Shown: positions 3,124 through 21,954 of the stretch, one piece after another
Position numbering within the stretch: the first letter of the stretch is position 1
Layout: every line of letters starts with the position of its first letter
DNA from: Microbacteriaceae bacterium
Lineage (GTDB): Bacteria; Actinomycetota; Actinomycetes; Actinomycetales; Microbacteriaceae
DNA: 64,000 nucleotides
Direction: 5' to 3'
Assembly: GCA_024639935.1 (NCBI GenBank)
Contig: JAHEFZ010000005.1
Location: 1-64,000 of the forward strand
Notes under the pieces: generated by a model
What the model saw: only the letters and a program-made list of their open reading frames with translations
Databases searched by the model: none
What the model was told of the DNA's origin: nothing
Position numbers and translations under genes: made by a program

Positions 3124-3166
3124 ACACAAAAGTTCCAGAATGGGGCGACATGTCAAGGAGGACATG

Positions 3167-3946
3167 ATGGGATCGCGAATGGCTGGGCGCACCGTGATTG
3201 TCACTGGTGGAGCTTCGGGTATTGGTTTGGGTATCTCGACAGGCTTGGCCGCTGAAGGCGCTAACCTCGTCATCGCCGATGTCAATCTCGACAACGCTCA
3301 AAAGGCCGCCGATGCTATCTCCCAGTCCGGAGGTAAGGCCATCGCCGTGAATGTTGATGTCACAAAGCGTGAATCAGTCACGGCTGGCGTTGAACGAGCG
3401 GTGCAGGAATTCGGAAAATTGGATTGCTACTTCAATAACGCTGGGTTCAACAAGCCGATGAAGTTTCTGGATGTGACCGAAGAGAATTTCACCGCAATCA
3501 TGAATGTCAATGCCTTGGCTGTTTTTGTCGGTACACAAGAAGCGGCGAAACAATTCATTCGCCAAGGCACCGGCGGGAAGGTAGTCAACACCGCCTCGAT
3601 CGCTGGTCGATCGGGTTTTCCGAGTTTTGCACCATACAGTGCGTCCAAGGCCGCCGTCATTTCCATCACCCAAGCAGCTGCACGGGCACTCGCCGAACAC
3701 AACATCACCGTGAACGCCTTCTCGCCCGGGGTGGTTCAGACACCTCTGTGGACCGCGCTGGACAAAGACCTAGAAGAAATTGGCGAAGGCGATTCGGGTT
3801 TCGACTCCATGGCGGCGGGAATTCTCGTAGGCCGAGCCGCACAACCGGACGATATCGTCCCAACGGCGTTGTTCCTCGCCAGTAGCGATTCTGATTACGT
3901 CACGGGACAAACAATGGCAATAGACGGCGGAATGATTCTGGTCTAG
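3167..3946 (+). CDS. SDR family oxidoreductase (butanediol/sugar-alcohol dehydrogenase-like)
   Basis: GRTVIVTGGASGIGLGIS nucleotide motif, YSASK active site, NAG; AGGAGG upstream of ATG 3167. Confidence 0.85.
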   Translation: MGSRMAGRTVIVTGGASGIGLGISTGLAAEGANLVIADVNLDNAQKAADAISQSGGKAIAVNVDVTKRESVTAGVERAVQEFGKLDCYFNNAGFNKPMKFLDVTEENFTAIMNVNALAVFVGTQEAAKQFIRQGTGGKVVNTASIAGRSGFPSFAPYSASKAAVISITQAAARALAEHNITVNAFSPGVVQTPLWTALDKDLEEIGEGDSGFDSMAAGILVGRAAQPDDIVPTALFLASSDSDYVTGQTMAIDGGMILV

Positions 3947-3977: not shown

Positions 3978-5360
3978 ATGACAACGGCAACATTCGGAAC
4001 CAACCAGGTCGACTGGGAACAGCGTTTGGATTTTGACAAGCTTCGCTCTGATCGACTTGTCAAATTGAAGGCTGAACTCGAAAAGTCTGACGTCGGTGCG
4101 TTGTTGGCGTTTGATTTTGCAAACATTCGATACATGTCATCGACCCACATCGGAACCTGGGCGATTGACAAAGCGATCCGTTTCGCTCTGGTTACTCGAA
4201 AATCCGATCCGATCGTGTGGGACTTTGGCTCTGCCGCAAAACATCACCAGTTGTACAACCCGTGGCTCGCCACCACGACTGCTGAAGCAGACGCCGACCC
4301 GCATGCCCCTCACCATGGGGCGGTAAAGCCACGCGCGGAATCGGGTGCACGCGCCGGGATTTCTACTCTTCGGGGGGCGTTCAACCCCGACGCGGGAATT
4401 GCCGACGAAGTCGCCGCAAAAATCAAGCGGGAACTTGAAAAGTTTGGTTTGCTCAATGAACCTTTGGGAATCGACATTGTTGAACTTCCGATTCTGTTTG
4501 CGCTTCAGCGCGCCGGCATCACCGTCGTTGATGGCCAGCAGATCTTTTTGAACGCTCGCGCTATCAAGACCAGCGAAGAAATCGGTTTGCTTACCCAGGC
4601 TGCATCGATGGTGGATGCCGCCTACGAGAAGCTTTACGAGTTTCTTCGACCCGGCGTTCGAGAGAACGAGGCGGTTGGACTGGTCTCTAAAGTTCTCTAC
4701 GATCTTGGATCCGAATACGTCGAGGGCGTCAACGCTATTTCTGGCGAACGCTGTTCACCTCACCCACACGTGTATTCAGACCGCTTGATTCGACCTGGAG
4801 ACCCAGCGTTCTTTGATATCTTGCACAGCTATCAGGGCTACCGCACCTGCTACTACCGCACCTTTGCGGTTGGTTCTGCGAGCACCGCGCAGCACGACGC
4901 ATACAAACGCGCCCGCGAATACATGGACCGCGCCATCGCGTTGGTTCGCCCGGGTGCAACGACAGCAGACATCGTTGCCGTGTGGCCCAAGGCAGAAGAG
5001 TTCGGCTTTGCGAATGAAGAGGCCGCCTTTGCATTGCAATACGGCCACGGTGTCGGTCTGTCGATCTGGGAAAAGCCCATTTTCTCTCGCCTCGTCTCGT
5101 TCGATCACCCCGAAGTTCTTCACGAAGGAATGGTTTTTGCGCTGGAAACCTACTGGCCATCATCTGACGGCTGGGGCGCCGCTCGAATCGAAGAGGAAGT
5201 CGTTGTCACCGCCACGGGATGCCAAGTGATCACTAAGTTCCCTGCCGAGGATCTCCTGGTTGCTGGGCAACGCTACTACTCGGTGGGTGGCCCACTTCCA
5301 CTCGAACGTGATTCTCAATCACACCTCAACACCGTTGCCGGTCGCGGTCAAAAAGCGTAG
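3978..5360 (+). CDS. M24 (pita-bread fold) metallopeptidase-family protein, DddP-like subgroup
   Basis: N-terminal RLVKLKAELEKSDVGALLAFDFANIRYMSS; C-terminal FDILHSYQGYRTCYYRTF, GHGVGL, FALETYW, ARIEEEVVVT. Confidence 0.8.
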   Translation: MTTATFGTNQVDWEQRLDFDKLRSDRLVKLKAELEKSDVGALLAFDFANIRYMSSTHIGTWAIDKAIRFALVTRKSDPIVWDFGSAAKHHQLYNPWLATTTAEADADPHAPHHGAVKPRAESGARAGISTLRGAFNPDAGIADEVAAKIKRELEKFGLLNEPLGIDIVELPILFALQRAGITVVDGQQIFLNARAIKTSEEIGLLTQAASMVDAAYEKLYEFLRPGVRENEAVGLVSKVLYDLGSEYVEGVNAISGERCSPHPHVYSDRLIRPGDPAFFDILHSYQGYRTCYYRTFAVGSASTAQHDAYKRAREYMDRAIALVRPGATTADIVAVWPKAEEFGFANEEAAFALQYGHGVGLSIWEKPIFSRLVSFDHPEVLHEGMVFALETYWPSSDGWGAARIEEEVVVTATGCQVITKFPAEDLLVAGQRYYSVGGPLPLERDSQSHLNTVAGRGQKA

Positions 5361-5368
5361 CGATACTG

Positions 5369-6430
5369 ATGGGAAAAATGAAAGCCGCCGTTTACCACGC
5401 AGCGGGTGATGTTCGCATCGAAGAGCGCGATGTGCCCGTACCGTCGTCCGGCGAGGTGTTGCTCAAGGTCCTACGCTCGGGAATGTGCGGAACCGACGCA
5501 TCGGAATTCAAATCGGGTCCCAAAATTTTTGCCACGCAAACTCGGCACCCCGTGAGCGGCCACGAAGGCCCCATGATTCTGGGGCACGAGTTTATTGGCG
5601 AAATTGTTGGCGATGTTGACGCATCGTCCGGATTCGCGACCGGTGATCGGGTGGCTTCGGGGGCTGGAATTTCGTGTGGAAAATGCACGCGGTGCGCGGA
5701 AATGCGCACGAATTTGTGCGAAAAATACGTGACGCTTGGTTTGAACCGCGATGGCGGAATGGCAGAATACGTTGCCGTTCCAACCAGCACACTGGTGAAA
5801 ATTCCTGAAGAGCTAAGTTTGGATGCCGCCGGAATTGCGCAACCACTTGCGGTTGGCTTGCATGCCGCGCGACGTGCCGGCGTCCGCGATGGCGACAAGG
5901 TGTTGCTGATTGGCGCCGGCGCAATCGGAACATTCGTCTTGGCTGGACTGAAAAAACTTTTTTCGGCAGAGGTAACCGTGCTCGATTTCGGCGGGAGCCG
6001 GCTAGAGCGCGCGGCCAGGCTCGGGGCGGATCACACCGTTGAAGTCGGCGAAAACGCTGAAGCGGACATCGCGAAAATCTTTGGCAACGCAGGAATTGAT
6101 GTGATCATCGAGGCCAGCGGTGCACCCGGCCAGCTTCAATTCGCCATTGGCTTGGTCAAGCGAGGTGGCAACATATTGCAGGTTGGTTTGCCCTCAACCA
6201 AACAAGAAATTGATGTGCACAAGATTGTCATGAGCGAAATCAACATCCGAACCACCCTCGCCCATGTCTGCGATCAAGACCTCGGACCAGCACTCGAAAT
6301 TTTGGGTGCAACAACATTGGCTGCAGAGTTGATTGAGGGCGTCTATCCGCTCTCAGAAATAAGCACTCAACTTGAGCTTCTCGGCACGGGCAAAATTCAG
6401 GGCAAAGTCCTTTTCGATCCATCGCGTTGA
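5369..6430 (+). CDS. Zinc-binding alcohol dehydrogenase (MDR family)
   Basis: GHEFIGEIVGD, structural zinc loop SCGKCTRCAEMRTNLC, Rossmann GAGAIGTF. Confidence 0.85.
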   Translation: MGKMKAAVYHAAGDVRIEERDVPVPSSGEVLLKVLRSGMCGTDASEFKSGPKIFATQTRHPVSGHEGPMILGHEFIGEIVGDVDASSGFATGDRVASGAGISCGKCTRCAEMRTNLCEKYVTLGLNRDGGMAEYVAVPTSTLVKIPEELSLDAAGIAQPLAVGLHAARRAGVRDGDKVLLIGAGAIGTFVLAGLKKLFSAEVTVLDFGGSRLERAARLGADHTVEVGENAEADIAKIFGNAGIDVIIEASGAPGQLQFAIGLVKRGGNILQVGLPSTKQEIDVHKIVMSEINIRTTLAHVCDQDLGPALEILGATTLAAELIEGVYPLSEISTQLELLGTGKIQGKVLFDPSR

Positions 6431-6454: not shown

Positions 6455-7513
6455 ATGAAGGCAGCAATCTTTTACGGAGCGAAAGACATCCGCGTTGACA
6501 ACGTGGCTGAACCCCAGTCGGTAGGCGTTGGCGAAGTACGGCTCAAACCTTTTTGGTGTGGAATCTGTGGCACGGATGTGCACGAATACGCAATGGGGCC
6601 GATTGTGATTCCGTCTCAGCCACACAAGCTCAATGGCTCGATCCTGCCTCAGATTCTTGGTCACGAGTTCTCTGCCGAAGTCTTGGAAGTTGGCAAGGGA
6701 GTGACCAATGTAAAGGTTGGCGATCGTGTTTCGGCGATGCCGTTGTTGTCCTGTGGCGTGTGCTACTTCTGTTCGCGCGGCGACAACCACCTCTGCACCT
6801 CAATGGCGTGTATTGGTTTGAGCTGCGAATGGGGCGGCATCGCAGAACAAGCGGTCGTTCCAGCCGCCAACGTCTTCACCTTGCACGACAACGTTTCGGA
6901 CGTCGCCGGTGCACTCGTTGAGCCAACCGCGGTAGCTGCCTACGGTGTCGACCGCGGAAATGTTCGCCCGGGAGATACGATTCTCATCACGGGCGCGGGT
7001 CCGATCGGCGCACTGGCAGCGCTCTACGCCGAAAATCTCGGAGCACGCGTCTACGTTTCAGAGCTCAACCCAAACCGTCAAAAGATGATGAATGACCTTG
7101 GCGTTGCGACACTGCTGGACCCGACCAAAGACGACGTCATCGCCGCGTTGAAAGATGCCACCGGCGGTATCGGCGTTGACGCCGTCATCGAATGTTCGGG
7201 GAACGAACGGGCACTGCAGACAGCAATCAAAGCCGTTCGCTCGGGTGGATACGTGGTTCAGACTGGGTTGCACACGAAGCCTGCGTCAATCGAGCCGATG
7301 GAACTTGCCGAGCGCGAAATTACGTACACGGGGACCTGGTGCTACCCGGTAACGGACTGGCCACGAATCATCGACTTGATCGGTCGACGCGGACTCCAGG
7401 TTGAAAAGGTTGTGAGCTCGAAAATCAATATGGACGACATCGTGACAAAAGGCTTCGAAGAACTTGTATCGCCAACCGGAACCGAAACCAAAGTACTAGT
7501 GAGGGGACACTAA
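6455..7513 (+). CDS. 2,3-butanediol dehydrogenase-like MDR dehydrogenase
   Basis: MKAAIFYGAKDIRVDNVAEP...CGICGTDVHEYAMGPIVIP...ILGHEFSAEV; SCGVCYFCSRGDNHLC; GAGPIGALAAL. Confidence 0.8.
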   Translation: MKAAIFYGAKDIRVDNVAEPQSVGVGEVRLKPFWCGICGTDVHEYAMGPIVIPSQPHKLNGSILPQILGHEFSAEVLEVGKGVTNVKVGDRVSAMPLLSCGVCYFCSRGDNHLCTSMACIGLSCEWGGIAEQAVVPAANVFTLHDNVSDVAGALVEPTAVAAYGVDRGNVRPGDTILITGAGPIGALAALYAENLGARVYVSELNPNRQKMMNDLGVATLLDPTKDDVIAALKDATGGIGVDAVIECSGNERALQTAIKAVRSGGYVVQTGLHTKPASIEPMELAEREITYTGTWCYPVTDWPRIIDLIGRRGLQVEKVVSSKINMDDIVTKGFEELVSPTGTETKVLVRGH

Positions 7514-7515
7514 TC

Positions 7516-8490
7516 ATGAAGGCTCTGCAGTTTGTCTCAGAAGGTAAAGCCGAAGTCAACGAACTTGCTGTTCCCGACATTGCGGACGATGAAGTTTTAA
7601 TCGCGTCTCGAGCGGTGGGGGTTTGCCACTCAGACATTGAGTTACTGGAAGGGCGCTACATCATTCCTTTCAGCTACCCGATTATCCCAGGACACGAATG
7701 GTCTGGCGAAGTGATGAAGGTCGGCGCAAAAGTAGCGAATTTCGCGAAAGGGGACCACGTTGTTGGCGATTGTGTCATTGGGGACGACCACTTTGGCTTT
7801 TCGATAAGTGGTGCGGCGGCGGAATTCTTCATTACGAAGGCCTCCTGGCTGCATAAAATTCCCACGAATATCTCGTGGAATAATGGCGCTCTCGTCGAGC
7901 CATTCAGTGTTGCGTATTACGCATTGATGCGCGTTGGCAACGTGAACGCAAGCGATACTCTCGTGGTGCTCGGTGCTGGCCCGATTGGACTCGCGGTAAC
8001 CGCCGCGTCAAAAGCGTTGGGTGCGCGAACGATTGTTGTTGAACCCGTTGATTTTCGTCAGAAGGCGGCACGCGAACTCGGCGCAGACATCGTGTGTACG
8101 CCGGACGAAATCGCAGCGGTCCTTGACAAAGACACCGGTGGCCGAGGAGCCAACGTTGTCGTCGAAGCAACGGGTCGCCCCGACGTGATGGCAACCGCAC
8201 TCGAGCTCGCGGGCTTCAAGGGACGCATCGCTTACATCGGCATCGATGTCGGCAAGTCGGCGCCGGCGCAGCTCGGATTGATTCAATCCAAGGAACTCAC
8301 CATCACCGGTTCAATCGGTTCGCCCGGCGTCTGGGAAGAGACAATTCGCTTCATGTCGACAAAGAACATCGATCTCTCGCCTCTTGTCACCGCCCGGTTT
8401 GCCATCGATGACGCCCTCGGCGCCGTCGACGCAGCGCAACACCCGATGAACAACATCAAAGCTCACATCGAATTGAACGCAAGCATCTAA
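7516..8490 (+). CDS. MDR alcohol dehydrogenase lacking a canonical structural-zinc Cys lobe
   Basis: VGVCHSDIELLEGRY, PGHEWSGEV, LGAGPIGLAVTAASKALGA; loop GDCVIGDDHFGFSISGAAAEF instead of four Cys. Confidence 0.8.
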   Translation: MKALQFVSEGKAEVNELAVPDIADDEVLIASRAVGVCHSDIELLEGRYIIPFSYPIIPGHEWSGEVMKVGAKVANFAKGDHVVGDCVIGDDHFGFSISGAAAEFFITKASWLHKIPTNISWNNGALVEPFSVAYYALMRVGNVNASDTLVVLGAGPIGLAVTAASKALGARTIVVEPVDFRQKAARELGADIVCTPDEIAAVLDKDTGGRGANVVVEATGRPDVMATALELAGFKGRIAYIGIDVGKSAPAQLGLIQSKELTITGSIGSPGVWEETIRFMSTKNIDLSPLVTARFAIDDALGAVDAAQHPMNNIKAHIELNASI

Positions 8491-8564: not shown

Positions 8565-9647
8565 CTATTGGGGAAGAATGTTGGCTTTGCGATAGGCTTC
8601 AACGTTTGAGAAGAAGCTCTTGGGGCTGGACCGGAAATTCAAGAAGCCTGCTTCGCGTGACTTCGTCATGTCCGTGAAGCACTCAATCTGGCGACCGAGG
8701 TCACTGTCGCTGTGCCACCATGAGGCAAGTTTGGTCACATCGGAAACGGCAAGATTGTGCTTTTGGGCGATCTCTTCCCAAACCGGTGCAGCGTCCTTCA
8801 TTTGCTCTTCGAGCGGCTGGAAGTGAGATTCCTTTGGGCCCTCGTAGGGCAGACCGAAGTGTTCTGCGATCTGTGGCCACATCCAGCGCCACCGAAATGT
8901 ATCCCCGTTCGCAATGTTGAACGCTTCGTTTTCGCCAGCCTTGTGTGTCGCTGCCCAGACAAGTTGTTCGCCGAGCAGGTCGGCATCGGTCACATCGACC
9001 ACACCGTTCCACGACTGAGTCGATCCAGGGTAGATGAACGGTTTGCCCAGTGCTTTTTGAATTTCAGCATAGACAGAGAGAGTCAGCACCATGTTCATTG
9101 CATTGTCGACGGCATAACCAAAAATGGTGTGCGAGCGGTGAACACTCCAGGTGAATCCTTGGTCGCGTGCCGCAGCAAACAGTTCATCTTCTTGGGTGTA
9201 ATAGAAATTCGGAACATCGAGGCGAGGTTCGTCCTCGTGGAAAGGAGTCTCTGCCATGACAGCGTTCGCATAATTGTCGAACGGTCCAAGATAGTGTTTC
9301 AAGCCCGTCTGAAGAGCGACGTGACGAACGCCGCCATCTGGCTTTAGTCCGGCAAGAAGATTTCGGATGGTGGCGCCGTTCACTTCAATGTTTTCGGCTT
9401 CCGAATCCTTTTTGATCCATGCGGTCATGAATACAATTTCCGGCTTCAGCCCCGAGAGCGCGGTTTTCACCTCTTCAGCGTCGAGCAAGTCAGCCTTGAT
9501 GTGATGAACACCAGCCGGCAGGCCGTCTGTCCGGCGCGATAACCCGTGTACTTCCCACCCTGCATTCATCAGCTGCGTGGCAATTACTTGACCTGAGATT
9601 CCGGTGACTCCAACGACGAGTGCCTTGCGAGTTGAATCGTTGCCCAT
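8565..9647 (-). CDS. PRISE-type SDR (progesterone 5-beta-reductase/iridoid synthase-like)
   Basis: GVTGISGQV, NFYYTQEDELF and HRSHTIFGY motifs; start trimmed to ATG 9647 (MGNDSTRKALVVG). Confidence 0.75.
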   Translation of the reverse strand: MGNDSTRKALVVGVTGISGQVIATQLMNAGWEVHGLSRRTDGLPAGVHHIKADLLDAEEVKTALSGLKPEIVFMTAWIKKDSEAENIEVNGATIRNLLAGLKPDGGVRHVALQTGLKHYLGPFDNYANAVMAETPFHEDEPRLDVPNFYYTQEDELFAAARDQGFTWSVHRSHTIFGYAVDNAMNMVLTLSVYAEIQKALGKPFIYPGSTQSWNGVVDVTDADLLGEQLVWAATHKAGENEAFNIANGDTFRWRWMWPQIAEHFGLPYEGPKESHFQPLEEQMKDAAPVWEEIAQKHNLAVSDVTKLASWWHSDSDLGRQIECFTDMTKSREAGFLNFRSSPKSFFSNVEAYRKANILPQ

Positions 9648-9849
9648 TTCTACGCATCTCCATTTCATGCTGTCGTTCACTTGAGATGAACGATACCAGA
9701 ACTTCTCAACTTTGCGCCCTGGCAGCGGAAACGACGGTTTGGCCGTCATTTAGCCCGAGTCGGATACGTGTATGTTCAGACAATATCCTTGCTAACATCA
9801 AGGGAGTCTCGCTTTTAGTGGAGGAAGCTCAAACAAATTTGGCATAACG

Positions 9850-9873
9850 GTGTGACAGAAATTGTTGCCACAC
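9850..9873. promoter_or_regulatory. Candidate operator: imperfect inverted repeat GTGTGACA-N8-TGCCACAC
   Basis: Read directly between the divergent PRISE SDR and sugar ABC permease; 7/8 arm match. Confidence 0.3.
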
Positions 9874-9950
9874 ACTATGCTCGAACTATAAAGTGGCAGT
9901 CAACACATGTTCAGTACTATGGAACTGAACTCGGGCACGAAGGAGTGCAG

Positions 9951-10988
9951 ATGGCACAGCAAAGTGAGGCGACCCTCTCGAGGGGTCCACGCTTTCAGGT
10001 CTCGAAAGGTCTGTTGACCGTTTCGGTATCGACTGTGGTTCTGTTCGTTCTCAGCGCTATCGTTGCGCCGTCGAGTGTTTCGCCAGGACCTCTGGGCAGC
10101 ATGATTCCGTTCGCCGCAATTTTGGCAATCGTTGGGCTCGGTCAAATGCTGGTCATCCAGCAGGCCGGTATCGATCTTTCTGTTCCAGGATCCGTTTCAC
10201 TCGCGGCTGTCATCGTTTCGGCACTACCTGAAATCGAAGACGATCGCCTTCTCCCGGCGGTAATTCTCTCGCTCGTTGTCGCCATTGCGATTGGGATTCT
10301 CAACGGATACCTGGTTGGTTTCCTCAAATTGAACCCGATCATTGCAACTCTCGGAACCAACTCGTTGCTTTTTGGCTTCGTGATGCTGATAACCCAGGGA
10401 ATCCCTCGCATGACGACTGCCTTGCTGTTGTCCATCGTGAGCGGGTCCACTTTCGGGATTCCGAATTCGGTATTCTTCGCAACCGCTGTCCTCATGGTGG
10501 TCGTTTTCATTTTGCGCAAAACTGTTCCGGGTCGGCGATTTGAATCGATTGGTGCAAGCGCCCCGGTCGCAATGGTCTCTGGTTTACGGATCAAGACCCA
10601 TCAAGCAATGGCCTATGTGTGGGCACAAGTTCTGTACGCAATTGCAGGGATTATGATCGCTGGAGTTATCTCTGAACCCAACGGCACTATGGGTAGCGCG
10701 TATCTCCTGCCGTCGGTCGCCGTGGTCGTTCTCGGTGGAACTTCGCTGTTAGGCGGTCGTGGCCTTCCCGCCGCCACTGTGATTGCCGCAGTATTCCTCT
10801 CCCAACTCGACCAATTCGTTCTTGCGCTTGGGGTAAATTTTGCAATCCGCACCCTCGTTCAAGCAGCAGCGCTCGCAATCGGCGTTGCAATTTACACCGT
10901 GGACTGGTCTCGCGTGAGATCTGTCCTTCAAAAATTCCTGTCGACTCAACGTCGCGGGGAGCAACAAACTTCTTTGCCGACGGCTTAG
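9951..10988 (+). CDS. Sugar-type ABC transporter permease (RbsC/BPD_transp_2 family)
   Basis: LGQMLVIQQAGIDLSVPGSVSLAAV, VVLGGTSLLGGRG; start trimmed to MAQQSEATL. Confidence 0.85.
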   Translation: MAQQSEATLSRGPRFQVSKGLLTVSVSTVVLFVLSAIVAPSSVSPGPLGSMIPFAAILAIVGLGQMLVIQQAGIDLSVPGSVSLAAVIVSALPEIEDDRLLPAVILSLVVAIAIGILNGYLVGFLKLNPIIATLGTNSLLFGFVMLITQGIPRMTTALLLSIVSGSTFGIPNSVFFATAVLMVVVFILRKTVPGRRFESIGASAPVAMVSGLRIKTHQAMAYVWAQVLYAIAGIMIAGVISEPNGTMGSAYLLPSVAVVVLGGTSLLGGRGLPAATVIAAVFLSQLDQFVLALGVNFAIRTLVQAAALAIGVAIYTVDWSRVRSVLQKFLSTQRRGEQQTSLPTA

Positions 10989-11040: not shown

Positions 11041-12144
11041 ATGATTCGTCGTCGTAAAGTCGCTGCAGCGCTTTCTGCTGCGGCCATTGCCGCCCTGCTG
11101 TTAGCGGGCTGTGCAAGCACTGCCACAACTGATCCCGGTACCGACGCCGCAGCGGGCGACCGCCCCGACTGGTGTGGACCAACCGAAATCACCATGGGAC
11201 TCACCGATGGTTTCGGTGGAAACAACTGGCGTCTCGTCACCACTGCCTCGGCACAAGACGAGATCGCAAAGTGTTCGAGCGTCACCGAGCTGCTCTACGC
11301 AGACGGCCAGGGCGACACCACCAAGGCAATCTCGGACATCAACGCAATGGTTGCCAAGGGCGTCAAGGCGCTCGTCGTGTTCCCTGATGCAGGTCCCGCA
11401 ATCCTTCCTGCACTTCGCGACGCCTACGCAGCTGGTGTTGTCACGGTTCCTTACCGTGTCGACGCGGGTGGCGTTGCTGGCGAGGACTTCAACCTTTGGG
11501 TTGGTGGCGACTTCGTGACCGACGGCAAGAACTGGGGCGAGTGGGTCAAGGCCAACTTCCCCGACGGCGCGAACATCTTGTTCTTGTCAGGTCCTGCTGG
11601 AAACAGCCAGGGTGTCGACGAGCGAACAGGTTTCGAATCCGTTCTCGGTGATGGAACCGGCGCTTACAAGTACATCGGTGAGCAGCCCTTCGAAGTTACC
11701 AACTGGGATGCAGCACTCACCCAGAAGGTACTTACCGCCGCAATCGCAAAGTACGACCAGATTGACGTAATCATGTCCGACTTCGGTCCGGTTATGGTTT
11801 CGTCACTTGGTGAATTCACCAAGAGTGGCCGTTCGATTCCTGCACTCGCAACTTCTGACGGAAACATCCTCGGTTGCTTCTACGAAGACAACAAGGACGC
11901 AAACCCCGACTTCAAGTTGATGACCGTTGCCACGGGTAACGACCACGTGCGTCTTGCAGTTCAGCACGCTGTTGCCCTCGCAACTGGTGGTGTCGTTCCC
12001 ACGGCGACATCATTCGCTGGACCGGTGTTCGAGGACTCCACGTCAACGGACAAGCCCGTGCAGTGCAACCGCGACATCGACCCCTGGACCTTCCTCTCAG
12101 CTCAGCTGAGCGGCGAGGCCCAGCAGGCGCTGCTCGGTCAGTAA
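11041..12144 (+). CDS. Sugar ABC transporter substrate-binding lipoprotein
   Basis: Lipobox LLLAGC; periplasmic-binding pattern KGVKALVVFPDAGPAILPALRDAYAAGV; ggagg RBS. Confidence 0.85.
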   Translation: MIRRRKVAAALSAAAIAALLLAGCASTATTDPGTDAAAGDRPDWCGPTEITMGLTDGFGGNNWRLVTTASAQDEIAKCSSVTELLYADGQGDTTKAISDINAMVAKGVKALVVFPDAGPAILPALRDAYAAGVVTVPYRVDAGGVAGEDFNLWVGGDFVTDGKNWGEWVKANFPDGANILFLSGPAGNSQGVDERTGFESVLGDGTGAYKYIGEQPFEVTNWDAALTQKVLTAAIAKYDQIDVIMSDFGPVMVSSLGEFTKSGRSIPALATSDGNILGCFYEDNKDANPDFKLMTVATGNDHVRLAVQHAVALATGGVVPTATSFAGPVFEDSTSTDKPVQCNRDIDPWTFLSAQLSGEAQQALLGQ

Positions 12145-14815: not shown

Positions 14816-15697
14816 TTAGCGAATCTTCTTTTGTCGTGTCAACTCGGCAACCGCGGACCAGTCCAGGTCTTTGAGGTCGGGGTCGACGAGTGCCTGATCA
14901 AAGAGTTGGTGTAGCACAGTGGCAACCGGAAGCGTGAGGCCAAGGCTCGCCGCTGCATCCTCAACGAGCTTCACGTCCTTGAGGCCGAGTGCCATCGAGA
15001 ACCCGCGCGGAGTGTATGCACGATTGACAATCATCGGGCCATACCCGACATACGCGGAACCGGTGAACGCGGTGTGCGTCAAAATTTCCATGAAAGTGTT
15101 GGCGTCGACTCCCGCGGATTCCACTAATGCCACCGACTCCCCGATGGCCTGGAGTGCATGGATCAGGTTGTAGTTGACGCCGAGTTTGACGAAATTGGAT
15201 TTGGAATGGTCTTCCCCAACATTCCAATACTGTGCGGCGATCTTGTCAAAAATATGTCCGGCGGCATCGATATCCCCTGCCTTCCCGGCGGCAACGACAA
15301 GAAGTTTGCCGCTCGTGATTGCGATCGGGCGACCAAGCACAGGCGCCGCAATGTACCCAATCCCGTGGGCGTCATGACGTGAGGCGAGGGTTTCCGACGC
15401 GGCCGGGCTCAAGGTTGACATATTGATATGAATTGCGCCAGGTTTAGCTGTCGCGAGGCGCTCGTCGCTGAAAACGTCCAATGCGGCATCATCATTACTG
15501 AGTAACGACATCACGAAGTCGTTGCGTAACGCCTCGATCAGCTCAACCTGTCGAGCTCCCTTGTCACGAAGTTCATCGATGTCTTTTGCGGATCGATTCC
15601 AGATATCGACGTCGAAGCCTTGGTCAAGTAATCGATGTGCCATCGCAGTACCCATTGAACCAAGGCCAATGAGAGAAACACGAGTTTTATCCACCAC
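14816..15697 (-). CDS. NAD(P)-dependent oxidoreductase, 3-hydroxyisobutyrate dehydrogenase family
   Basis: VSLIGLGSMGTAMAHRLLDQGFDVDIWNRS; GVNYNLIHALQAIGE; KDVKLVEDAA. Confidence 0.85.
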   Translation of the reverse strand: MVDKTRVSLIGLGSMGTAMAHRLLDQGFDVDIWNRSAKDIDELRDKGARQVELIEALRNDFVMSLLSNDDAALDVFSDERLATAKPGAIHINMSTLSPAASETLASRHDAHGIGYIAAPVLGRPIAITSGKLLVVAAGKAGDIDAAGHIFDKIAAQYWNVGEDHSKSNFVKLGVNYNLIHALQAIGESVALVESAGVDANTFMEILTHTAFTGSAYVGYGPMIVNRAYTPRGFSMALGLKDVKLVEDAAASLGLTLPVATVLHQLFDQALVDPDLKDLDWSAVAELTRQKKIR

Positions 15698-15700
15698 GAG

Positions 15701-16900
15701 TTATCCGATCAATTCGTTGCGAACAAATTCAAGTTCCCGACTGACGTACTCGATAATGTCGCCGGTTTTCAGCTCTGGAGGCAATACATCCCACGTGTAG
15801 GTTTCGATTTCCAAGTGATCCGATAAAGGAGTTTCCCGGTGCATTGCCAGTGCTTCTTGGACGCCGAATCGAGTCGTCCGAAATGGGCCGAGTTCCTCGA
15901 GGAACACCGGCACGTGAAAATGTGTGCGCATCTCACTGGGTACTGGATTCGCCTCATAGGCGTCGAGCGCTTCGCCGAGGTTCAAAAACTTGGTGATCGT
16001 GCCGCCTTGCTTGAGCGATGTCTGGCTGAGATAGATCGTGTCCGTGAAACGCCTGAGTGCGGCGATCTTGTCGTGCGTGAGTTCCTCAACCCAGAGCGAT
16101 GATGCTTCCTGAAGTTTAAAGATTGGGATACCGGCGTCAACTATTTTGTTGAGAGAGTCGGTGATGTTCTCGAAACCGACCGACTGGTGCCCGATATCAA
16201 AAACAATTCCCAGATATCGCCGAACAGCGCCTTCAGCTTCACTCAAGGGAATGTTGGCGACTTCGGCGAGTTCGCTGATGCCGGCGCGCGAATAGATTCG
16301 ATTCGTGAACCACTCGATTGTTTCGTCGGTGGTTTCGAGATAACACGCGGGCTCGGGTTCGATCGCAAGTTTGACTCGGCGCCCCGTGCGTTCTTCGAGA
16401 TTGCGCAAATGAGCCACCACCCGAAAAGCATTGCGCGTGAACTTAGCGATGTACGGTTCTCCTGCAACATTTGGCTTGAACGCAAGAGGCGCAGTCTGAA
16501 TTGAAGGATTCACATCAGCCGGCGAAATCTCCGCCAGAATGTCGGCAATCGAATTGGTGTAGTTGACGCGGTCATCGGTGGTCCAGTCCGGTTCGTAGAC
16601 CCGTTCCATCACCACTTCGCCCTTGAACGGACCGTAGGGAAAGGCATTCACTGTGTAGACATACAAGTCTTCCTTCGCCAGGAACTCGGCTAAGGACGCA
16701 CGCTCGTCAGGGTTTTCCGTCAGCGCTTTCGCTGACGAAGCAGATATTCGCAGGGAAACCGCGAAGGGTTCGTTCGGCGAGATCCGCTTTTTGACCTGTG
16801 GGACGAACTCGCGGAGGCTTGCGTTCATTTCAGACCATGTGTCGCCAAGGTGCACCAGGGTCGAATAACCGAGGTGGCCCAAGCCGTTGTTGAGTTTCAT
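15701..16900 (-). CDS. EboE-like TIM-barrel protein (metabolite traffic protein EboE / AP-endonuclease-2-like)
   Basis: Start at ATG 16900: MKLNNGLGHLGYSTLVHLGDTWSEM...LYVYTVNAFPYGPFKGEVVMERVYEPDW..R..YT; IEPEPACYLE. Confidence 0.75.
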   Translation of the reverse strand: MKLNNGLGHLGYSTLVHLGDTWSEMNASLREFVPQVKKRISPNEPFAVSLRISASSAKALTENPDERASLAEFLAKEDLYVYTVNAFPYGPFKGEVVMERVYEPDWTTDDRVNYTNSIADILAEISPADVNPSIQTAPLAFKPNVAGEPYIAKFTRNAFRVVAHLRNLEERTGRRVKLAIEPEPACYLETTDETIEWFTNRIYSRAGISELAEVANIPLSEAEGAVRRYLGIVFDIGHQSVGFENITDSLNKIVDAGIPIFKLQEASSLWVEELTHDKIAALRRFTDTIYLSQTSLKQGGTITKFLNLGEALDAYEANPVPSEMRTHFHVPVFLEELGPFRTTRFGVQEALAMHRETPLSDHLEIETYTWDVLPPELKTGDIIEYVSRELEFVRNELIG

Positions 16901-17076
16901 GAAGCCCTTCCGCGCTGTCGTTAAAGCCAGTTTATGTGCAGTTTGACTTAACACGAAGCGTGAATTTGACCACTTTTTGCCGATTTCATAAAGAATCAAT
17001 GAAAAAGAAGGAACGATTCTGTAAGGTGATGGTAAACCACCTGGTTGTCGGGTGCCAGCGCAAAAGAGGGGACGCG

Positions 17077-17799
17077 ATGCATTTCGCAATCGGTGAAGAG
17101 CTGCGTAGAGTCCGCCTGTCGCGCAAATTGAGCTTAAGAAACGTCGCATCGGCAGTCGGAGTTTCCGCCAGCCTCCTCTCCCAGGTTGAGACGGGCAAAA
17201 CTCAGCCATCGGTGTCCACACTCTACGCACTGGTCAATCATCTAGGGGTGTCGCTCGATGGGCTGATGAAGGGCATTAGCCAATCCGAGGACAAAACGTT
17301 AGACGGCTCTGATTACGAAGATGGGCACCACGGAATCGTCCAGCGACGAAGCGAGAATCCCCTGATTGAAATGGAAAACGGAGTGGTGTGGGAGCGTTTG
17401 GCTGACGGTGGGCGTGATGACGCCGACCCGCTGATGGTGACCTACGAACCGGGAAGTTCTAGTTCGGTTGAAGGCAAAATGATGCGCCATGATGCCCTCG
17501 AGTACGGACTGATAATCGAAGGCACCTTGACCCTTCGAATCGAAAACGAAGTGCACGAGATTTATCCAGGTGACTCATTTAGCTTCGACGCAAATCGTTT
17601 GCACATGTTCGAAAACAATTCGGCGAAACCTGCACGAGGAATCTGGTTTGTCATTGGCAGTAAACACGCCGAAAGTGCCGACCTGAGTAACCTCGGTCCG
17701 GCAAAATCTACGGCACCGTCACTGCCCGCGAAATCTGCTGTCGATGTCCTCAATGCGATGGGTGACGCGAAAACCCGCAAGCTGAAAGGCCGGGGCTAA
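17077..17799 (+). CDS. XRE-family HTH transcriptional regulator with C-terminal cupin domain
   Basis: IGEELRRVRLSRKLSLRNVASAVGVSASLLSQVETGKTQPSVSTLYAL; cupin EYGLIIEGTLTLRIENEVHEIYPGDSFSF. Confidence 0.85.
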   Translation: MHFAIGEELRRVRLSRKLSLRNVASAVGVSASLLSQVETGKTQPSVSTLYALVNHLGVSLDGLMKGISQSEDKTLDGSDYEDGHHGIVQRRSENPLIEMENGVVWERLADGGRDDADPLMVTYEPGSSSSVEGKMMRHDALEYGLIIEGTLTLRIENEVHEIYPGDSFSFDANRLHMFENNSAKPARGIWFVIGSKHAESADLSNLGPAKSTAPSLPAKSAVDVLNAMGDAKTRKLKGRG

Positions 17800-17812: not shown

Positions 17813-19075
17813 CTAAACCAACATGCTGAGCGGATTTTCGATTCGCGTCACGAACGCCGCCAACCACTGGGCTGCCAAAGCACCGTCTACCGCGCGATGG
17901 TCCGCGGAAAGCGTTACCGTCATCACGTTCGCAATAACGATCTGACCGTCGACGACAATCGCACGCGGTGACGCTGCTCCCACGGCCAGAATTCCGGATT
18001 GAGGCGGATTCAAAATTGCGCTGAATTCCTTCGTACCAAACATTCCTAAATTGCTGACCGCAAAACTTCCGCCGTCAAGTTCTTCTTGACGCAGTTTGCC
18101 TGCGCGCGCGCGCGACGCCATTTCCGAAATTTCTTGGCTCAGGTTGCTGAGTGAGCGTTTTTCGACGCCGCGAATCACCGGCGTGAACAAGCCGCCTTCG
18201 GTGGTGACTGCAACAGCTATGTCGGCCGACTCGTACTTGTACATCGCCTCGGCGTTCCACACCACGTTCGAGTCAGGAACATCCATCAGCGCGCTGGCGA
18301 CCGCCTTCACCACGAAGTCATTGACCGAAATCTTGACGGACGAGGACTGATTAATGCTCGCGCGAAGTTCGAGCAATGCGTCGACTTTACAGTCGGCGGT
18401 TACATAAAAGTGAGGAACCGTAGACTTGCTCTCGGTCAAGCGGCGTGCAATCGCTCGACGCATCCCGGTGTGCGGAACGGTCGAATAACTGCTCGAGTGC
18501 TCTTGTGTCGCAAGTTCCGAACTCGACGAGAGGGATGGCGTGTCCGATGACATCGTGCCTGCGCCGCTCTTTGCGAAACTCTCGAGATCCCGCCGAACAA
18601 CGCGCCCAAGGGGGCCCGTTCCCGAAACGCGTGACAATTCGATGCCCCGTTCCCGAGCCAACTTGCGAACTATCGGGCTCACGAACTGCCGAGACCCCTC
18701 CGGTGTTTCGGCAACTTCGGCTTCGGCCCGAACCGGTGCATCCACGGGCGACGAAGTAGTTTCCTCGACGGTGCCCACAGCGTAAACCGTGGATGTCGTG
18801 GTGCCCAGCAGCGCATCACCTACAGAGCCGTCTTCGCCAGCGCTCAGAACGATCATGATGGGGGCGCCGACGTCAACCGACGCACCGTCGGCAACAAGAA
18901 TCTTGTACACGGTGCCTTCGGCATCGCACGCGAAATCTACGACAGCCTTCTCTGTTTCGATATCGGCAATGATGTCGCCGACTTTGACGGATGCACCGAC
19001 CTCGACATGCCATTTCGACAGAACGATCTCGGTTGCACCGGCGGCGACCTCTGGCATCGTGATGAGAGTAGCCAT
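17813..19075 (-). CDS. 2-oxo acid dehydrogenase E2 component (dihydrolipoamide acyltransferase)
   Basis: Lipoyl domain DIETEKA; PSBD VSPIVRKLARERGIELSRVSGTGPLGRVVRRDLE; catalytic TLSADHRAVDGALAAQWL. Confidence 0.9.
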   Translation of the reverse strand: MATLITMPEVAAGATEIVLSKWHVEVGASVKVGDIIADIETEKAVVDFACDAEGTVYKILVADGASVDVGAPIMIVLSAGEDGSVGDALLGTTTSTVYAVGTVEETTSSPVDAPVRAEAEVAETPEGSRQFVSPIVRKLARERGIELSRVSGTGPLGRVVRRDLESFAKSGAGTMSSDTPSLSSSSELATQEHSSSYSTVPHTGMRRAIARRLTESKSTVPHFYVTADCKVDALLELRASINQSSSVKISVNDFVVKAVASALMDVPDSNVVWNAEAMYKYESADIAVAVTTEGGLFTPVIRGVEKRSLSNLSQEISEMASRARAGKLRQEELDGGSFAVSNLGMFGTKEFSAILNPPQSGILAVGAASPRAIVVDGQIVIANVMTVTLSADHRAVDGALAAQWLAAFVTRIENPLSMLV

Positions 19076-21264
19076 CAGTTCTTTCCAAATCCCAGAGCCG
19101 CGTTTTTGAGGCCAACGACAACTTCTTCGGTTCGTGCGATTGCCGCGCGTTCAAGCACCTTTGAGATGCTCGGTGACGCTTCGCCACCGTGCACACGCTG
19201 CACCGGCTGATCAAGATAGTCAAAGTAACGGCGTTGGATTTCATCGGCCAGCCAGCTGCCGTAACTCGTTCCCTGCGCACCTTGCTCGACAATCATCACT
19301 GCATTTGTCTTTTTGATGCTGGTTTCGATTGTCGTCCAGTCAATGCTTGCGCGGTCAAGCCAGCGAAGGTCGATGACTTCGGCGTCAATTCCGGTTTGTT
19401 CGACGGCTTCCAGCGAGTGGCGCACCATTGAAAGATAGGTCAGTACCGTCAGGTCGTTCCCGGCACGCTTCACGGCAGCCTTTCCAAACGGTATCTGGTA
19501 ATCGAAATCACCGACGGCAATTTCACCCGTTGAGGCGTAAAGATCGACGTGCTCGATGACGAGTACCGGATCGTTGAGTGCCAGTGCGGCATTCATGAGG
19601 CCGATGTAGTCAAAAGGATTCGATGGCGCAACTATGCGCCATCCTGGTGCGGTTGCGAAAATGCCCGCCGGGTCCATGAGGTGTTGGGACCCATACCCAG
19701 AGCCCATGGCAACCTTGGTGCGAATTACGACGGGAACCGACGCATCCCCACCAAACATGTGCCGTGCCTTGCCGATTTGGTTGAAGACCTGGTCAGCCGC
19801 CACCCACATGAAGTCCGGGTACATGAATTCGATCACGGGCCGGAAGCGGCCGTCGAGCCCCATTCCACCGCCAAGGCCCGCGAATGCGTTCTCGCTAATC
19901 GGTGTTCCCAGAACTCGATCGGGATATTTCTCGACAAGCCCTTTCGTTGCGCCGTTCGTTCCACCCTTGAGGCGGTGGATGTCTTCACCGAGTACCACGA
20001 TGCGCGAATCCGTTTCCATGCGACGATCCATGACCGCCGCAACCGCATCAACGAAACGTACTTCTTCCTTTTCGCCTGTGTGCGAAGAAAATTCCTCGGT
20101 TCGAACGCCACTCAATTCCGACGCGTCGCCACGAACTCCCACGTTGACGAAGTCGGGGCTCGGCCACAGATCGACACGAATTCGCCGAGAACCGGGCTTG
20201 CCTTCAGGGTCTGGCTCGAGTAATTCACTCACGGCCAGTTCCATTGCGGACTGCGCCTGTGCTCGAACGTTGTCGACTTCGACTTGGTCGATCAATCCGA
20301 GGGCCATCATCTCGTTGGCAACACGCGTGAGGGGATCGCGTCCGCGCCACTCTTCTTCCTCGTCCTTTGGTCGGTATCCGAATGCGCTACCCGGGAACGG
20401 GCCGTTCTGGTGGAAGAACCGATAAACCTCTGCCTCAATGACCGCCGGGCCGTTGCCCGCACGAGTGTGTTCTTCGATTTCTTTCATCGCAAGGTAAACC
20501 GCGAGTGGGTCCATGCCGTCCACCCGCCAGCTGGGAATTCCGAATCCGGTTCCCCGACCAGAGAGGCGTTCTTCCGCCGTCACTTCCGAAACGTGCGTGG
20601 ACACCGCGTAAAGGTTGTTCTCGATGAAAAACACCAGCGGAATATCCCACGCGGCGGTGAGGTTCATCGTTTCAAGCACTGACCCGATGTTGACAGCGCC
20701 GTCGCCGAAGTAACTCACGGTCAGATCGCTGGTACCCGAGTGCAGCTGTGCCCAGGCATTACCTGCGCCGAGTGGAACACCGCCACCAACAATCGCGTTG
20801 GTTCCCAAGGCGCCCGCTTCTTTCCATTGCAAGTGCATTGAGCCGCCGCGTCCGCGACAATATCCTTGCGCCAAACCCAAGATTTCCGCGAGTGTTCGTT
20901 GAAGTACCTCTTGAATCGGTTCGCTCACCAGATTGGTAACGTCCAGACCGTCCGGCGAGACAAATCCAATCGCCTTCGCCAAGAATTGGTGGTGCCCGCG
21001 GTGAGAACCGTTCACTGCGTCCGTCCCACGTAGTCCAATAATCGAACCGACCGCGCCACCCTCTTGGCCAATACTCGAGTGTGCGGGGCCGTGGACGAGA
21101 CCCTCGCCAGCTAGTTGCAGAACTGTCTCTTCGAAGGCCCGAATGAGGTGGAGTTGACCCAGCATGGTTTCAAGCAGGTGCGGGTCGGCGTTTCGCCAGT
21201 CTTCCGGTGTGGTGCGAAGCTCCACCCAGGCTTCTTTCGGGGAAAGCTGAATTTTCTCGGTCAT
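19075..21264 (-). CDS. Thiamine pyrophosphate-dependent dehydrogenase E1, fused alpha and beta subunits
   Basis: TPP motif GDGAVNIGSVLETMNLTAAWDIPLVFFIENN; beta domain EEVRFVDAVAAVMDRRMETDSRIVVLGEDI; 729 aa; start trimmed to MTEKIQL. Confidence 0.85.
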   Translation of the reverse strand: MTEKIQLSPKEAWVELRTTPEDWRNADPHLLETMLGQLHLIRAFEETVLQLAGEGLVHGPAHSSIGQEGGAVGSIIGLRGTDAVNGSHRGHHQFLAKAIGFVSPDGLDVTNLVSEPIQEVLQRTLAEILGLAQGYCRGRGGSMHLQWKEAGALGTNAIVGGGVPLGAGNAWAQLHSGTSDLTVSYFGDGAVNIGSVLETMNLTAAWDIPLVFFIENNLYAVSTHVSEVTAEERLSGRGTGFGIPSWRVDGMDPLAVYLAMKEIEEHTRAGNGPAVIEAEVYRFFHQNGPFPGSAFGYRPKDEEEEWRGRDPLTRVANEMMALGLIDQVEVDNVRAQAQSAMELAVSELLEPDPEGKPGSRRIRVDLWPSPDFVNVGVRGDASELSGVRTEEFSSHTGEKEEVRFVDAVAAVMDRRMETDSRIVVLGEDIHRLKGGTNGATKGLVEKYPDRVLGTPISENAFAGLGGGMGLDGRFRPVIEFMYPDFMWVAADQVFNQIGKARHMFGGDASVPVVIRTKVAMGSGYGSQHLMDPAGIFATAPGWRIVAPSNPFDYIGLMNAALALNDPVLVIEHVDLYASTGEIAVGDFDYQIPFGKAAVKRAGNDLTVLTYLSMVRHSLEAVEQTGIDAEVIDLRWLDRASIDWTTIETSIKKTNAVMIVEQGAQGTSYGSWLADEIQRRYFDYLDQPVQRVHGGEASPSISKVLERAAIARTEEVVVGLKNAALGFGKN

Positions 21265-21325
21265 CGTTGACTCCAATGCGGGATGGACTGCGGCGGGTTT
21301 TGTACTTACCCATAGACTAGCAAAA

Positions 21326-21395
21326 TGTATCCAATTGGCAAACAAAATTGTCGAAATAGGAACAAAATGGCAAATTTTGGGCAAGACTGTATCCA
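21326..21395. promoter_or_regulatory. Divergent promoter region with two direct TGTATCCA repeats 62 bp apart
   Basis: TGTATCCA at 21326-21333 and 21388-21395, between E1 (-) and VOC-GntR (+). Confidence 0.3.
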
Positions 21396-21417
21396 TTCAG
21401 CGAATTGAGGAGTCGCC

Positions 21418-21954
21418 ATGAGCTCAGGAATCCCTGGTTTACGGGGCACGGACCACATTGGTTTCACCGTTCCCGATATTGAGGAAGCAACAATCTTCTT
21501 CAGGGACATCATCGGTTGCGAACTTGTTTACGAGCTGGGACCGTTTCACAGCGACGACGACTGGATGGCGGAACATCTCAACGTTCACCCACGCACCGTC
21601 ATGAAACAAATACGCTTCTTTCGCTGCAAATTCGGGTCTAACTTCGAGATCTTCGAATATGTCTCCGCTGACCCCGAGGGGGCACGACCACAGCCTCGCA
21701 ACAGCGACATTGGTGGACATCATCTTTGTTTTTATGTGGACGACATCGATTCGGCCATTGGTTACCTCAAAGAAAACGGAATTCGGGTATTGGGGGAAAA
21801 GACGAATAGTTCCAATGCGAGCCTTGGCCAGCAGTGGGTCTATTTCCTCAGCCCGTGGGGAATGCAATTTGAGTTATGCAGCTTTCCGAACGGCAAAGCG
21901 TACGAGAGCGACGCAAAGGTGATGTTGTGGCATCCAGCCAGCCCAGCACAGTAG
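21418..21954 (+). CDS. VOC superfamily (glyoxalase/dioxygenase-like) protein
   Basis: GTDHIGFTVPDIEEATIFFRDIIGCELVYE; GGHHLCFYVDDIDSAIGYL; GMQFELCSF. Confidence 0.8.
   Translation: MSSGIPGLRGTDHIGFTVPDIEEATIFFRDIIGCELVYELGPFHSDDDWMAEHLNVHPRTVMKQIRFFRCKFGSNFEIFEYVSADPEGARPQPRNSDIGGHHLCFYVDDIDSAIGYLKENGIRVLGEKTNSSNASLGQQWVYFLSPWGMQFELCSFPNGKAYESDAKVMLWHPASPAQ

Follow-up and report, generated by a model that had tools for sequence, protein, structure and literature searches.

The ebo cluster has been defined as a set of six genes, in which the substrate and the reaction of EboE cannot be inferred, and detached extra copies of ebo genes, e.g., eboB, are also found (PMC5133447). Genetic evidence, which concerns ebo clusters only, e.g., that of Nostoc, ties the cluster to the export of scytonemin precursors (PMC6282210). 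No description of an orphan EboE clade, or of EboE outside clusters, was found in the literature searched. To our knowledge, no EboE protein has been characterized biochemically.

The window, i.e., the whole stretch of 64,000 nucleotides of Microbacteriaceae DNA that was analysed, has an EboE-like gene outside an ebo cluster, which confirms the observation of the initial annotation. The features of the locus are collected in Table 1. A ribosome-binding site (GGAAGGG) is present just 5' of the start of the EboE-like gene; a longer, mechanically called reading frame from 17230 was rejected as the gene start because the homologues start at MKLNNGLGHL or its equivalent. The HIBADH-family gene follows 3 bp downstream on the same strand, and the two genes are probably cotranscribed. 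This is the placement between HIBADH and XRE-cupin genes that had been noted initially, and the sugar-catabolism context noted with it is borne out by the substrate-binding protein (SBP), the permease, the ATPase–permease fusion and the three Zn-dependent dehydrogenases (Zn-ADHs). The intergenic footprint between the EboE-like and the XRE-cupin genes is strongly conserved and, judged from the alignment, is a candidate promoter/operator; when the promoters of the window's cluster were compared for common motifs, weak 16-mers only were obtained.

Table 1. Coordinates of the features of the EboE-like locus in the window
Feature	Position	Strand	Basis or remark
SDR dehydrogenase	3140–3946	+	
M24 (creatinase/DddP-type) protein, conserved partner	3978–5360	+	PF00557
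Zn-dependent polyol/threonine-type dehydrogenase 1	5369–6430	+	
Zn-dependent dehydrogenase 2	6455–7513	+	Nearest solved structure: butanediol dehydrogenase 6ie0
Zn-dependent dehydrogenase 3	7516–8490	+	Best NCBIfam match IolM, below cut-off
PRISE-like SDR	8565–9749	-	PF22917
Sugar-type ABC permease	9852–10988	+	PF02653
Sugar-type substrate-binding protein	11041–12144	+	PF13407
ABC ATPase fused to permease, 837 aa	12239–14752	+	Two ABC_tran + BPD_transp_2
HIBADH-family beta-hydroxyacid dehydrogenase	14816–15697	-	PF03446 + PF14833; no NCBIfam cut-off reached
EboE-like xylose-isomerase-type TIM barrel, 399 aa	15701–16900	-	ATG at 16900, stop at 15701; NF035939 profile match, AlphaFold model, Foldseek
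Conserved intergenic footprint AGTTTATGTGCAGTTTGACTTAACAC	16929–16954	.	Alignment of 8 related intergenic regions
XRE-cupin regulator, transcribed divergently from the EboE-like gene	17077–17799	+	HTH_3 + Cupin_2
E2 acyltransferase, 2-oxoacid/acetoin-type dehydrogenase complex	17813–19075	-	
Fused E1 alpha-beta, 2-oxoacid/acetoin-type complex	19075–21396	-	
VOC/glyoxalase-family protein	21418–21954	+	

Several of the neighbouring proteins have features of their own. The M24 protein is related to the DMSP lyase DddP and to creatinase-type enzymes (105 bits against the DddP model, cut-off 600), and its second canonical metal Asp is, judged by eye, apparently a Cys (GYRTCYYRTF), so that it may not be a peptidase. 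The length of the ATPase–permease fusion is typical of 44 related loci. The alpha and beta parts of E1 form one protein of 773 residues, adjoining E2.

The protein matches the TIM_EboE profile (NF035939) over its full length (positions 1–379 of 379) with 390 bits (7e-117), above the cut-off of 250, as expected from the initial assignment as EboE-like; this is its sole NCBIfam match, and no rival family claims the protein. No Pfam match, PF01261 included, is obtained with the protein alone, and a PF01261 match with E ≤ 1 is seen for 20 of 49 orphan homologues, the best having an E-value of 2.5e-6. Sequence searches of the PDB with the protein and with its alignment gave nothing meaningful, the value of 0.03 for MavE being a chance match. 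The AlphaFold model (pLDDT 91.3, pTM 0.91) predicts a xylose-isomerase-like TIM barrel. A Foldseek comparison of this model with the PDB retrieves the L-xylulose-5-phosphate 3-epimerase UlaE, Art22, IolI, ketose 3-epimerases, xylose isomerases and the 3-dehydroshikimate dehydratase AsbF (3dx5), with TM-scores of 0.49 (query) and 0.68 (target), which indicate superfamily-level likeness only. The xylose-isomerase-like superfamily also holds dehydratases and endonucleases. It is possible, but rather unlikely, that the protein acts in the same catabolic setting by another chemistry, namely as an inosose-type (IolE-like) dehydratase, a hydrolase or a lyase having the same fold. PF01261-type barrels include dehydratases, as the match with AsbF illustrates, and a keto-cyclitol would be in line with the dehydrogenase matches of the Gfo/Idh and IolM-like types; against this, most of the top Foldseek matches are sugar isomerases and epimerases, though fold alone cannot discriminate.

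The statement of the initial annotation that no other ebo-like gene lies nearby holds for the window and the flanking loci, where no eboA, eboB, eboC, eboD or eboF is present. Nor were EboA, EboC or EboF found in the full genome (assembly of 1.31 Mb, 95.8% complete, with a single eboE-like copy): the EboA-domain and EboC/SCO3242 models gave nothing above threshold, and the EboF query, in a search without a positive control, gave nothing. The EboD query gave one partial match, with 33% identity, on another contig, and this is probably AroB. Profile searches likewise found neither EboA nor EboC/SCO3242 in the other orphan-only genomes tested.

The same separation is seen when 80 related loci, picked for the likeness of their sequences without regard to context, are compared with 22 reference ebo loci drawn from plasmids and whole genomes. 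A neighbouring EboA, EboB, EboC, EboD or EboF occurs in 0/80 of the former, and several of them occur in each of the 22 reference loci. Five genomes (Nonomuraea, Terracoccus, Actinoplanes and two Terrabacter) carry both types in separate loci, one EboE being beside EboA and the orphan elsewhere. It is very unlikely, given these data, that the protein is a true EboE having an ebo-type job in the processing or traffic of metabolite precursors, with partners that have been lost, are unassembled or lie elsewhere in the genome. Such a role would agree with the score above the NCBIfam equivalog cut-off and with the invariant core common to both groups (discussed below), and the completeness of 95.8% makes a small assembly gap possible, but the absence of EboA and EboC/SCO3242 extends to the other orphan-only genomes tested, the two-type genomes keep their second EboE beside EboA, and five residue swaps between the groups are near-complete. 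In the reference set, one Salipiger strain has two complete ebo clusters on two plasmids (L083 and L088).

In the phylogeny, which the initial annotation had suggested as a check, the orphans and the ebo-cluster EboE proteins split. The orphans fall together on one side of a branch with an SH-aLRT of 100 in a tree with 59 orphan rows, and in the careful tree all sampled close relatives form one orphan clade with 100/100 support, which is kept in 200 of the 200 bootstrap trees counted. The closest tree neighbours of this clade are the alphaproteobacterial ebo-cluster EboE proteins, and rooting with a distant homologue nests the orphans within the ebo diversity, with inner branches (89/82 and 87/94) that are not strongly supported. 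Descent of the orphan clade from EboE is therefore likely, but not proven, since the inner support is modest, some branches are long and the cyanobacterial EboE proteins were left out of the tree. More distant, shorter EboE relatives of Nonomuraea and Actinoplanes (L110:5114-6118 and L111:4400-5494; scores of about 190 and 108 bits, under the cut-off) may possibly form a third group. A Kribbella EboE-like copy (L109:5131-6288) has no ebo partners in its flanks of about 5 kb, and its diagnostic residues are mixed (S13, N15, S135, G233, S266).

Residues were compared between 88 orphan rows (some genomes being present as re-fetched copies) and 22 ebo rows. Neither group shows any variation at nine residues of active-site type, E181, E183, D235, H238, K262, Q264, H327, H329 and E366; the putative metal ligands are read from the strand ends of the model. 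At five other positions the orphans have S13, L15, Q135, V233 and A266, whereas C, N, S, C and S are found in 22/22 ebo rows; the exceptions among the orphans are one gap each at positions 13 and 15, and position 266, which is Ala in 84 and Val in 4 rows. The ebo-type signature defined in this way (C13, N15, S135, C233, S266) is absent from the protein of the window, which has S, L, Q, V and A. In the model, the five swapped positions are within -2 to +3 residues of the ends of strands β1, β4, β6 or β7; 13 of the 38 positions that are invariant in both groups are also at strand ends, and some enrichment is expected there because active-site columns are conserved at strand ends anyway. The mouth of the pocket has probably been altered for another substrate. 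The initial annotation had suggested that EboE-family proteins may act as sugar-type isomerases or epimerases. This finds fold-level support in the likeness to UlaE, IolI, ketose 3-epimerases and xylose isomerases, but its extension to the whole EboE family is limited: the orphans make up a clade of their own, in which five positions at the barrel mouth are almost completely swapped, so that they inform the chemistry class of EboE and not its substrate or role.

The neighbours of the orphan genes are catabolic. Among 56 nonredundant orphan loci, a HIBADH neighbour is present in 35, a Zn-ADH in 39, an M24 protein in 26, an XRE-cupin regulator in 25 and an SBP in 27, versus 0/18 ebo loci in each case, the ebo flanks being shorter. 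The HIBADH gene is directly adjacent and on the same strand, with gaps near zero, in 21 of 55 nonredundant orphan loci, and this arrangement occurs in Microbacteriaceae, Pseudomonadota and Acidobacteriota; the HIBADH proteins of distant loci have about 31–37% identity with that of the window, and therefore may not be one orthologous partner. The M24 gene is directly upstream of the EboE-like gene in 11/55 loci. The actinobacterial context comprises a sugar-type ABC importer, Zn-ADHs, M24, XRE-cupin, VOC proteins, HIBADH and E1/E2; in Alphaproteobacteria and Acidobacteriota a Gfo/Idh-type dehydrogenase is commonly found upstream and HIBADH downstream. Burkholderiaceae orphans (L040, L043, L044) have a gene for a BKACE-family cleavage enzyme next downstream, in the place of HIBADH.

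The orphan type, assigned by span and context, occurs in 6 of 250 Microbacteriaceae, and EboE-type matches of any kind in 14/297 Actinomycetota and 3/299 Pseudomonadota genomes (even samples). The M24 protein is widespread in Microbacteriaceae, and a close M24 homologue is present in 6/6 orphan carriers and in 31/244 other Microbacteriaceae (Fisher p=7e-6, kinship ignored), and none of the six ebo-cluster carriers among the 250 is listed among the close-M24 genomes. This association, like the same-strand adjacent HIBADH gene found across three phyla with gaps near zero, makes it scarcely probable that the EboE-like gene is functionally unlinked to its neighbours and that the colocation reflects shared ancestry or passive clustering, even though the neighbour sets vary between phyla and the close Microbacteriaceae loci are not independent. 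Most of the Microbacteriaceae having a close M24 protein have no EboE-like gene, which is therefore dispensable in some versions of the pathway; in a modular pathway it may provide an accessory step or one that widens the range of substrates. The gene maps, with labelled genes, of 16 M24 loci without the orphan gene show no obvious alternative TIM barrel in its slot.

It is proposed, with moderate confidence, that the protein is a metal-dependent keto-polyol isomerase or epimerase of a catabolic pathway, being related to EboE but having a changed pocket and no role in an ebo pathway. The importer would take up a polyol, which would be oxidized by the HIBADH, Zn-ADH or Gfo/Idh-type dehydrogenases into the keto-polyol substrate. 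With the help of a divalent metal, the EboE-like enzyme would then isomerize or epimerize this keto-polyol, be it a cyclitol, a sugar acid or an open-chain sugar, and the product would enter an oxidative route, the end point of which in the present organism may be the E1/E2 2-oxoacid/acetoin-type complex. The enzyme has a common origin with EboE and has kept the active-site core, while the mouth of its pocket would be changed. More tentatively, the orphans could be a new EboE-derived enzyme family acting on a keto-cyclitol or a rare keto-sugar, in an oxidative pathway common to Actinomycetota, Pseudomonadota and Acidobacteriota; if so, its reaction would be the first biochemical handle on EboE in ebo clusters. 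Assays should be easier with a catabolic relative that has dehydrogenase partners and a locus of inducible appearance than with an ebo cluster.

An EboE-related clade in catabolic loci is real and phylogenetically distinct, and an isomerase or epimerase is the best-supported guess for its predicted barrel. This family is found in bacteria that mostly have no ebo cluster, where it probably serves to degrade a food molecule resembling a sugar. When compared with the EboE of eboABCDEF, the orphan is alike in its full-length match with NF035939 and its nine identical core residues, and unlike in having no ebo partner, a separate clade, swaps at positions 13, 15, 135, 233 and 266 and catabolic neighbours. 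For the orphan clade, annotation as a "metabolite traffic protein" is probably misleading, since the NCBIfam equivalog model gives this label to proteins in genomes without detected EboA or EboC. The likeness to the PF01261-type enzymes UlaE, IolI and the D-allulose/L-ketose 3-epimerases concerns the predicted fold, the acidic and His residues at the strand ends and the polyol-catabolic context, but the identity is about 10–14% and the orphan has extra segments (399 versus about 275 residues); Q264 can be read as replacing the usual His of the UlaE/IolI-type enzymes. The HIBADH-family L-threonate dehydrogenase LtnD pairs with the TIM-barrel isomerase OtnI, and a dehydrogenase of this family is likewise paired with a TIM-barrel protein in the window, although the latter dehydrogenase reaches 122 bits with the threonate dehydrogenase model, the cut-off of which is 350. 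Among the genes examined around it, neither a kinase nor an aldolase partner was identified. The inositol pathway of Thermotoga (IolM/IolN/IolO) also uses a Zn-dehydrogenase and a TIM-barrel epimerase, and the locus described here has an IolM-resembling Zn-dehydrogenase together with a TIM-barrel protein, although the IolM match reaches 184 bits against a cut-off of 450.
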